Of a stretch of DNA of 34,649 bases, positions 21,838-34,649 are shown piece by piece. Under the pieces are notes generated by a model. The model had not been told where the DNA came from and did no database searches. It saw only the letters and a program-made list of their open reading frames with translations. The position numbers and the translations under genes are program-made. Every line of letters begins with the position of its first letter. The stretch's first letter is position 1. The stretch lies in the NCBI GenBank assembly GCA_024413465.1, contig JAKSVU010000002.1, positions 139,063 through 173,711 on the forward strand. The letters run 5' to 3'. The DNA comes from Alphaproteobacteria bacterium. Its GTDB lineage: Bacteria; Pseudomonadota; Alphaproteobacteria; CAAGCB01; CAG-977.

Positions 21838-22971
21838 TTATAATCCTGTAGATTTACGAATAAACTGATTAGCAGGTAATCTTTCGATTTGATTATCTAA
21901 TTCTAATTCTACTAAAATACCCGAAATTACGTCTGGTGCAAGTCCTGTATTGCGAATTATATTATCTAATTCGACAGGTGTGCTACTTAACATATTTAAA
22001 ATCTTCGATTTTTCGCCATTTTCTTTTGGAATATCAAAAGAAAATTCTGGTTCAATTTTTATTTTTTTCTTTGTTTTTTTTGGGGGGGAAGGAAAAAAAT
22101 TCAATGAATTTGGTATATTTTCTAAAATATCATTGACGTTTTCAGTTAAAAAAGCTCCGTTTTTGATTAAATAATTTACCCCAGAAGAATGAGAATCTAG
22201 TGGAAAACCTGGAACAGCAAATATTTCTCGTCCTTGATCAAGGGCATTATTTGCTGTCAGCATTGCTCCAGATTTAATAGCTGATTCAACCACAACTACT
22301 CCAAGAGATAAGCCAGATACAATTCTGTTTCGAGCAGGAAAATTCCCTGGTTGAGGAGCAGTATCAATTGCAAATTCAGATAGGATTAAACCTTTTTCAC
22401 GTAAGGCATCATATAATTTTCGATTCTCTTCCGGATAGGGGACATTGATTCCCGTTCCTAATACAGCGATTGTTGAAACATTTTGAGAAGCATTTTTAAG
22501 GGCACCAGTATGGGCGGCACAATCGATTCCTCGTGCCATGCCAGATACGACAGTGTAATCATTTTCAACTAATTGCGCCGAGATATTTGATGCAAAAATT
22601 TGCCCATTGTAAGAACAATTTCTTGTTCCAACAACAGCAATTTTTTTTGATTGTAACAAATTGATATCGCCCAAAGCTGATAAAACAGGAGGGGCATCCG
22701 AAATTGATTTTAATAAATCTGGGTATATTTCATCCGTTTCAAAAATAAAATGGCCGTTTGCTTTTTCTAAACGAGTAATTTCTTGTTCTATTTCTGAAAT
22801 AGATTTTATTTTTATGGGCCTTTTTCTTCCAGATTTCTTTGCTATGTCTGGTAAATTTTTTAGTGCTTCTACTGCTGAACCATAAGTTTGAATAAGGTCA
22901 TGATAAGCAGCAGGGCCGATTTGATCGGTCCTGTATAATTGTAATTGCGCTAATCTTTCATTATTCCACAT
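21838..22971 (-). CDS. dprA: DNA processing protein A
   Basis: A Rossmann-fold protein that binds incoming single-stranded DNA and loads RecA during natural transformation. It has 377 residues. The N-terminal helical part (1-65, WNNERLAQLQLYRTDQIGPAAYHDL in fragments) is followed by the Rossmann core with AVVGTRNCSYNG, VVSGMARGIDCAAHTGAL and the family sequences LGTGINVPYPEENRKL and FPARNRIVSGLSLGVVVVE. A linker (about 292-310) is encoded by adjacent C7 and A8 tracts. The C-terminal winged helix (about 320-377, VELDNIIRNTGL) is the DML1-like domain. With comF also in the window, some competence capacity is possible, although both genes persist in many non-transformable bacteria. Its start overlaps the plsY stop by 1 base. 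Confidence 0.95.
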   Translation of the reverse strand: MWNNERLAQLQLYRTDQIGPAAYHDLIQTYGSAVEALKNLPDIAKKSGRKRPIKIKSISEIEQEITRLEKANGHFIFETDEIYPDLLKSISDAPPVLSALGDINLLQSKKIAVVGTRNCSYNGQIFASNISAQLVENDYTVVSGMARGIDCAAHTGALKNASQNVSTIAVLGTGINVPYPEENRKLYDALREKGLILSEFAIDTAPQPGNFPARNRIVSGLSLGVVVVESAIKSGAMLTANNALDQGREIFAVPGFPLDSHSSGVNYLIKNGAFLTENVNDILENIPNSLNFFPSPPKKTKKKIKIEPEFSFDIPKENGEKSKILNMLSSTPVELDNIIRNTGLAPDVISGILVELELDNQIERLPANQFIRKSTGL

Positions 22972-33267: not shown

Positions 33268-33349
33268 CGCGTCACGCGTTAATTCCGCTTGTTTTTCTCG
33301 GACCGGAGCCACGCAGTGGCGACAACCCGCATAAGTCCGGCTTGCGGGT
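33268..33349. repeat. Second GC palindrome cluster
   Basis: CGCG-TCA-CGCG (33268-33278), GCCAC-GCA-GTGGC (33308-33320) and a compound hairpin ACCCGC/GCGGGT (33325-33330 with 33344-33349) with an inner AAG/CTT stem. In addition CCCGCATAAGTC (33326-33337) is the exact reverse complement of GACTTATGCGGG (33400-33411), which overlaps the flagellin -35 and the start of the G run. Confidence 0.6.
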
Positions 33350-33397
33350 GTAAACCCCTTTAAATCCGCCATGTGTCACAAAAACGTAAAAAAAAGC

Positions 33398-33429
33398 TTG
33401 ACTTATGCGGGGGGGGGGTAAACTAAAAT
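33398..33429 (+). promoter_or_regulatory. Flagellin promoter candidate with G10 spacer (phase-variable type)
   Basis: TTGACT (33398-33403) is followed by TTATGC, ten G (33409-33418) and then TAAACTAAAAT. TAAACT (33419-33424) as -10 gives a 15-bp spacer; TAAAAT (33424-33429) gives 20 bp. Neither is the ideal 17, and gain of two or loss of three G would restore it. The order -35, homopolymer G, -10 is the layout of known slipped-strand promoters. Confidence 0.55.
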
Positions 33430-33432
33430 ATG

Positions 33433-33476
33433 AAGAAGGAGTGGTTCCTTTTTCCGTTATCGCAGAAGCGGTGATG
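33433..33476 (+). promoter_or_regulatory. Two stem-loops in the flagellin mRNA leader
   Basis: Hairpin 1 pairs 33433-33440 with 33446-33453 (loop GTGGT). Hairpin 2 pairs CGTTATCGC (33455-33463) with GCGGTGATG (33468-33476), 9 bp including G-T pairs, around loop AGAA, and is directly followed by six T. The AAGGAG ribosome binding site lies downstream at 33496-33501. The elements could stabilise the mRNA, bind a regulator such as FlbT, or attenuate transcription. Confidence 0.5.
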
Positions 33477-33508
33477 TTTTTTAATTTTATTAAAGAAGGA
33501 GACAGAAC

Positions 33509-34649
33509 ATGTCTACAAATAAAATTGCATTGACAAGCTCAATGCGTTCAAACTTGTTAAGTTTAAAAAATACTCAAAAATTGTTTGATTCAACTCAAGA
33601 CAAATTGTCAACGGGTTACAAAGTAAACAGTGCTATGGATAATCCATCCAGCTACTTCACTGCTCAATCTTTGAATTCTCGTGCAGACGATTTGAACACC
33701 TTGTTGGATAGTATCGGTCAAGCAGTTTCCACATTGCAAGTGACAGACCAAGGTATTACATCATTGCAAGACTTGGTTTCACAAGCAAAATCAATTGCAA
33801 ACTCTGCTCGTGATACAGCAAACGTCAAAGCAAATACGACTTCAAAAGTTTACTTTGATAAAGATGCCTTGAAGTCCAAATTGGTAACAGATTCTGTTAA
33901 AGGTACAGATGATGGTTCTGTGTCTGGTGAAGCTGATACAATGACCATTCGTTTTGGTGATTCTACCTCTATGACAGGGACAACCAACGTTCAGGAAGAT
34001 ACTTTATTATCAGGTATCAGTACTGAAGGAGATATGGGATCTGTTAAAATTGATGGTCATGAATACAAAATTAATACAGCTTCTACCTCTGGTAACAACA
34101 TGGAAACTGCAATTACATTTGCAGGTACAGATGCATTCAAAATTACTTTGAATGGGACAACATCCTATACATTGACAGATGCTGATGGAAATTCTTATGA
34201 ATTTACAGGTGATGGATCATCTCTTAAAGGTACAAACGGTTTTACAAAAGGTATTACTGAAATTACCGCAACTGTTTCTGAAGATGGGAAAACAACTTAT
34301 GCAGTAACTGGTGGTACAGCTGCAAAAGATGATGCTGCTACAACTACTACAGCTCATGCTTCAGCTTCAACAAGCACCATTAATGTTGCCGCAGGTTCAA
34401 CGGTTGGTCAAATGGCAAAAGTCATGGAAAACATGATTGGCGCTGATAAAGTATCTGTTTCTGTTCAAGATTCAAAATTGAATATTGCAACAAAGGATAC
34501 AACTTCTGTTGAAGTTACAAATGATGCTACAACAGGTGAAGGTATGGCTTCTGTATTCGGTATGGATAAAGGTCAAACAATCACATTGGAAGCTACAGAT
34601 ACAGCAGAATCTTTGCGTCAAAAAATTGATGCTTTGGATGGTGTATCCG
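33509..34649 (+). CDS. Flagellin (3' end outside window)
   Basis: The filament subunit, exported by the flagellar type III apparatus. The ATG follows AAGGAG, and the frame stays open for 380 codons to the window end. The N-terminal D0/D1 helices are canonical: MSTNKIALTSSMRSNLLSLK, then LFDSTQDKLSTGYKVNSAMD with NPSSYFTAQSLNSRADDL, and a coiled SIGQAVSTLQVTDQGITSLQ block. This N-D/NP-S/TYFTA version is like Rhodospirillales flagellins. From about residue 110 a large Thr/Ser/Gly/Asp-rich variable region follows (surface domains D2/D3), with few charged or aromatic residues, and there is no return to the conserved C-terminal helices before the edge. Codon use is more C-ending than in the neighbouring hypothetical genes, as expected for a very highly expressed protein. 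It is transcribed from the G10-spacer promoter and has a structured leader. Confidence 0.95.
   Translation, partial: MSTNKIALTSSMRSNLLSLKNTQKLFDSTQDKLSTGYKVNSAMDNPSSYFTAQSLNSRADDLNTLLDSIGQAVSTLQVTDQGITSLQDLVSQAKSIANSARDTANVKANTTSKVYFDKDALKSKLVTDSVKGTDDGSVSGEADTMTIRFGDSTSMTGTTNVQEDTLLSGISTEGDMGSVKIDGHEYKINTASTSGNNMETAITFAGTDAFKITLNGTTSYTLTDADGNSYEFTGDGSSLKGTNGFTKGITEITATVSEDGKTTYAVTGGTAAKDDAATTTTAHASASTSTINVAAGSTVGQMAKVMENMIGADKVSVSVQDSKLNIATKDTTSVEVTNDATTGEGMASVFGMDKGQTITLEATDTAESLRQKIDALDGVS

Follow-up and report, generated by a model that had tools for sequence, protein, structure and literature searches.

A poly-G tract in the predicted promoter spacer of a flagellin gene as a candidate phase-variable switch in an uncultured alphaproteobacterial family

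RESULTS

Flagellin promoter region

The analyzed window, that is, the whole stretch of 34,649 nucleotides with a G+C content of 34%, is part of a MAG of 2,026,263 bases (2.03 Mb) in 130 contigs. At its right-hand end lies the 5' part of a flagellin gene (33509..34649, + strand), recognized by Pfam PF00669 Flagellin_N (E = 1.3e-10) and by family-wide homologs; the contig ends inside the gene. Upstream of it are a ribosome-binding site, AAGGAG (33496..33501, +), and a promoter cassette of 43 bp (33387..33429, +), found by pattern search and pairwise alignment to be identical at 41 of 43 positions to the cassette of a type IV pilin-like gene of the same genome, with no similarity beyond it. The cassette includes the predicted -35 element TTGACT (33398..33403, +), conserved in the three copies of this genome and in relatives, the non-G portion of the spacer TATGC (33404..33408, +), kept in all three copies, the G10 tract as the proposed slippage site (33409..33418, +), the predicted -10 element TAAACT (33419..33424, +), and an alternative -10 element TAAAAT (33424..33429, +), again conserved in all three; the -35 and -10 labels are predictions from sequence.

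The initial annotation had placed ten G residues between TTGACT and TAAACT/TAAAAT, about 90 bases before the flagellin start codon, with a spacer of 15 or 20 bp, and the sequence bears this out: the ATG is at 33509, 90 bp past the end of the tract, and the spacer reads 15 bp to TAAACT and 20 bp to TAAAAT. TAAACT is preferred as the -10 element because in relatives the homologous position, elsewhere occupied by TATGAT, TAGAAT, TATCAT or TAAGAT, is the sole -10 within reach. A strict sigma-70 scan with spacers of 16 to 18 bp gave no promoter at the flagellin G10 site, which fits a 15-bp spacer.

The tract is the longest G or C run of the window, as had been noticed, followed by a G7 at 22082. 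Its supposed improbability by chance was confirmed with Markov models of order 0 to 3, in which 0.001 to 0.02 runs of at least ten G were expected in the window; in the whole genome, 3 such runs were observed versus 0.07 to 1.2 expected.

Two further features were observed around the promoter. An inverted copy of its left half lies about 50 bp upstream (33326-33343 versus 33394-33411, CCCGCATAAGTC / GACTTATGCGGG), matching over 18 nt at 89%, which 1 of 500 shuffles equalled; it was absent at the pilin and lipoprotein loci and at the locus of the congener G002. The predicted flagellin leader contains a hairpin followed by T6 (33455..33476, +) that resembles a terminator and may exert post-transcriptional control of flagellin. 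The leader is homologous to that of a predicted lipoprotein gene of the same genome, where a shorter stem seems to be retained at the position of the hairpin.

Copies of the cassette in the genome

The complete 2.03-Mb assembly contains five runs of at least nine G, all five at surface-type genes. Three of them are G10 tracts in a single promoter cassette, TTGACWTATGC-G10-TARAMTAAAAT, located before the flagellin gene (TTGACTTATGC-G10-TAAACTAAAAT), before a gene whose 193-aa product is type IV pilin-like and matches PilS and Bundlin (TTGACTTATGC-G10-TAGAATAAAAT), and before the gene for a 181-aa predicted lipoprotein (TTGACATATGC-G10-TAGACTAAAAT). The remaining two are within coding sequence, one in a repetitive ORF of 1848 aa that looks autotransporter passenger-like by eye and has no Pfam match, the other in a hexapeptide acetyltransferase gene inside a glycan locus. 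The search with the specific cassette pattern yielded these 3 sites in the genome versus 0 for reversed-pattern controls, and a device confined to flagellin was thus ruled out by the copies before the pilin-like and lipoprotein genes.

Beyond the cassette, the lipoprotein leader could be aligned to the leader and initial codons of the flagellin gene, with a local score of 81 (200 shuffles: mean 38, standard deviation 6.4, maximum 56). From this alignment, the lipoprotein promoter seems to descend from what was once a flagellin copy, of which the promoter was preserved and the remainder decayed.

A second pilin gene of the genome, whose protein is 91% identical, has no poly-G and carries the promoter TTGAAT-N17-TACACT, and another flagellin-domain gene of about 1130 aa on a different contig does not have the cassette promoter. 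In relatives, the flagellin genes mostly have ordinary promoters without poly-G, with spacers of N17-18 where read, e.g., TTGAAC-N17-TAGCGT. The poly-G-free pilin paralog and these ordinary flagellin promoters indicate that the poly-G is an element added at particular genes and not a general promoter feature. Matches to TTGACN-TANAAT in the genome were uninformative about the spacer optimum (109 versus 123 in the control). FliA was not found among three Sigma70_r2 matches (one RpoH and two small ECF-like); RpoD was missing too, so that the assembly or the search is incomplete.

Poly-G spacers in relatives

In 12 genomes of the family, which includes an alphaproteobacterial MAG from horse faeces, the runs of at least nine G were read, apart from about ten at contig ends, and a looser cassette search reaching down to G6 was added. 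The latter gave 12 distinct sites in four genomes of the genus versus 2 control matches. In the congener G002, the spacer was 15 bp with G8 before both flagellin and a membrane transporter-like gene, and 18 bp with G10 before an ORF without assigned identity. In the congener G001, the cassette TTGACAATACCATA-Gn was found with n = 9 before a glycosyltransferase gene (spacer 17) and n = 12 before a gene for a cysteine-rich secreted protein (spacer 20), and two more genes for cysteine-rich secreted proteins followed an interrupted tract (spacer 19) and a third copy of the TTGACAATACCATA cassette with its tract split by an assembly gap; two G001 pilins had spacers of 18 and 20 bp. A pilin of G004 (G10, spacer 18) and a gene without assigned identity in G006 (G11, spacer 17) were preceded by such promoters as well. 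The 13 spacers measured in the family were 15, 15, 15, 15, 15, 17, 17, 18, 18, 18, 19, 20 and 20 bp, with a mean of 17.1, and all copies of the studied genome were 15 bp. The initial annotation had called flagellin a classic target of immune-evasive variation in host-associated bacteria; surface genes as targets are supported by the poly-G spacers of 15 to 20 bp that recur in front of them, both here and in relatives.

Differences in tract length

Length change of the poly-G tracts, which the initial annotation had only postulated, is supported in this lineage by near-identical paralogs of relatives. The two G001 pilin paralogs share promoter flanks that are 96/100 identical upstream and 100/100 downstream, and their tracts are G10 (spacer 18) and G8AG3 (spacer 20), one copy having an interrupting A. 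Two glycosyltransferase paralogs of G004 (L182 and L183), 97/100 identical just past the tract, differ in that one has G12, which leaves the reading frame open, and the other G11, which closes it; they are candidates for classic translational phase variation, and the coding poly-G tracts of the lineage would accordingly switch translation.

Other tracts were uniform or interrupted. The three of the studied genome are all G10 and all give 15 bp, and the G002 flagellin promoter has G8 and still 15 bp, through a substitution (CT for GG) and no length change. The G001 site in C24 has its G tract broken by T; together with the A-interrupted pilin tract, it suggests that some G-rich spacers may be stable.

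Searches beyond the family

A cassette scan over all GTDB contigs returned four contigs, namely, that of the G002 flagellin and one each from Lachnospiraceae, other Clostridia and Peregrinibacteria, too few for conclusions; a scan of viral contigs for the module gave three matches. In the three MAGs outside the family (L084, L086 and L087), a closely similar module, TTGACNTATG(C)Gn-TANNNTANAAT, lies upstream of a lipoprotein-like or secreted-protein-like ORF. Of the matches to a class-wide search for poly-G spacers, many fell in GC-rich genomes, upstream of housekeeping genes or within coding regions. In low-GC families of Alphaproteobacteria other than the studied one (L093, L103, L104 and L105), TTGACG abuts a long G-rich or poly-G tract before secreted proteins, and one genome (G281) has two TTGACG/poly-G promoters that are one G apart. 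A different genus of the family contains many copies of a dispersed intergenic element resembling ctataaaaacat-Gn-catatttgtaacaaaagtgtaacaat, with n of about 12 to 18, frequently at contig ends and with a poly-G length that varies among copies (L221, L225, L231, L234, L238, L264, L266, L272, L274, L276, L277, L283, L292-L295 and L297).

DISCUSSION

Comparison with known switches

Transcription of Neisseria meningitidis porA and of Treponema pallidum tp0126, an OmpW homolog, is governed by a poly-G lying between -35 and -10, with an optimal spacing of 17 bp (PMC7864442), and in meningococci, homopolymeric tracts of 8 or more are mostly variable (PMC5084427). The flagellin promoter has the same arrangement, a G/C tract of at least 8 (here G10) between predicted -35 and -10 elements, and its cassette stands before genes for surface proteins (flagellin, the pilin-like protein matching PilS and Bundlin, and the predicted lipoprotein). 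The comparison with Neisseria porA, drawn from the outset, gains support from the recurrent poly-G spacers at surface genes and from the tract differences between paralogs. However, porA is a single porin in a different bacterial class, whereas here the switch is predicted and the cassette is common to three genes including flagellin. T. pallidum likewise has several poly-G promoters in one genome, but its GC content is about 52.8% and poly-G is common (PMC7864442), compared to five runs of at least nine G in a genome of 34% GC.

A homopolymeric promoter tract also controls expression of the surface protein Opc in Neisseria, as is proposed here, with the difference that the opc poly-C spans the -35 region and presumably works via a regulator (PMC7864442). 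In the phasomes of Campylobacter and Neisseria, coding poly-G/C tracts occur in glycosyltransferase, acetyltransferase and surface-protein genes, and the same is true of the studied family; the long G tracts of this genome are concentrated at surface genes (5/5 of at least nine G), but three of the five would affect transcription, not translation.

Proposed mechanism and alternatives

The best explanation, to which we assign a probability of roughly 0.7, is that G10 is a slippage-variable spacer of a sigma-70-type promoter that tunes flagellin transcription. DNA polymerase slippage on the run would add or remove G residues, and the changed count would alter the distance between -35 and -10 and with it the strength of flagellin transcription. 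With TAAACT as the -10 element, a spacer of 17 bp, and with it the highest expression, would be reached at G12, and the sequenced G10 (15 bp) would probably be low, as follows from the 17-bp rule of porA and tp0126; with TAAAAT instead, G7 would be high. Slippage as the cause, length change within the species, the ON and OFF values and an effect on motility are what we infer here. With another flagellin-domain gene present that does not have the cassette, flagellin switching may or may not alter motility. The paralog differences and the shared architecture support, at the level of sequence comparison, transcriptional phase variation by slippage as in Neisseria porA and Treponema tp0126.

The main rival that remains, although an unlikely one, is a fixed class of promoters, strong or specially regulated, whose 15-bp G-rich spacer is held by selection and whose G run serves in DNA structure or binding and not as a switch. 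It is favored by the constant 15 bp of the three copies of this genome (all G10) and of the G002 flagellin promoter, since such constancy is not required of a freely slipping tract; the second G8 promoter of G002 is also at 15 bp. The lipoprotein promoter, intact where the remaining flagellin-derived leader decayed, and the G-rich spacers (G7-8) before the housekeeping genes valS, groES, trxA, rplU and nuoA elsewhere in the class point the same way. Against these stand the 17 to 20 bp of further copies in the genus and family, the near-identical G001 pilin promoters whose tracts are two bases apart, the departure of 15 bp from the sigma-70 optimum, and the fact that a G-rich spacer does not require a pure G10.

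Action of the tract as a G-quadruplex or as a site for a DNA-binding protein, and not through spacer length, would be in keeping with the conservation of TATGC-G10 in the three promoters of this genome and with the regulator thought to mediate opc control (PMC7864442). We consider it quite improbable, as the non-G part of the spacer varies by species (TATGC, TATGCCT, ATACCATA and AATACATA) and the location between -35 and -10 is constant. A still smaller probability attaches to an assembly or sequencing artefact, i.e., a run miscounted or created by homopolymer error: the MAG is in 130 contigs, with a contig end 1.2 kb downstream within flagellin, and one G001 tract contains an assembly gap, but the tract and its elements are present at three unlinked loci and independently in other genomes, and a miscount by 1 or 2, while possible, would itself hint at mixed lengths. 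A chance or neutral G run with no function is rejected on the expected counts given above, all three genomic G10 runs sharing their position within one promoter motif.

Under slippage control of the spacer, the same cassette would place the pilin-like and lipoprotein genes each under independent random control, and the three cassette genes together with the two genes with coding poly-G/C tracts would make up a small group of contingency loci acting on surface structures. The wider proposal, that an uncultured alphaproteobacterial family bears a set of surface-gene switches in which a slippable poly-G cassette has been copied among unrelated flagellin, pilin and lipoprotein genes, each under independent random control, is one on which we see the odds as even.

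Significance

The literature search, with subscription journals mostly outside its reach, yielded no description of a flagellin promoter, or of any gut alphaproteobacteria, with a poly-G spacer. The working principle is already known; new, as far as the searched literature goes, are the host lineage, the flagellin target and the cassette common to unrelated genes. The switch hypothesis is directly testable with existing reads. Poly-G promoters that switch surface genes at random are known chiefly from a few human pathogens, and their likely occurrence at flagellin, pilin and glycan genes in this uncultured family suggests that organisms known only from metagenomes also employ the strategy.
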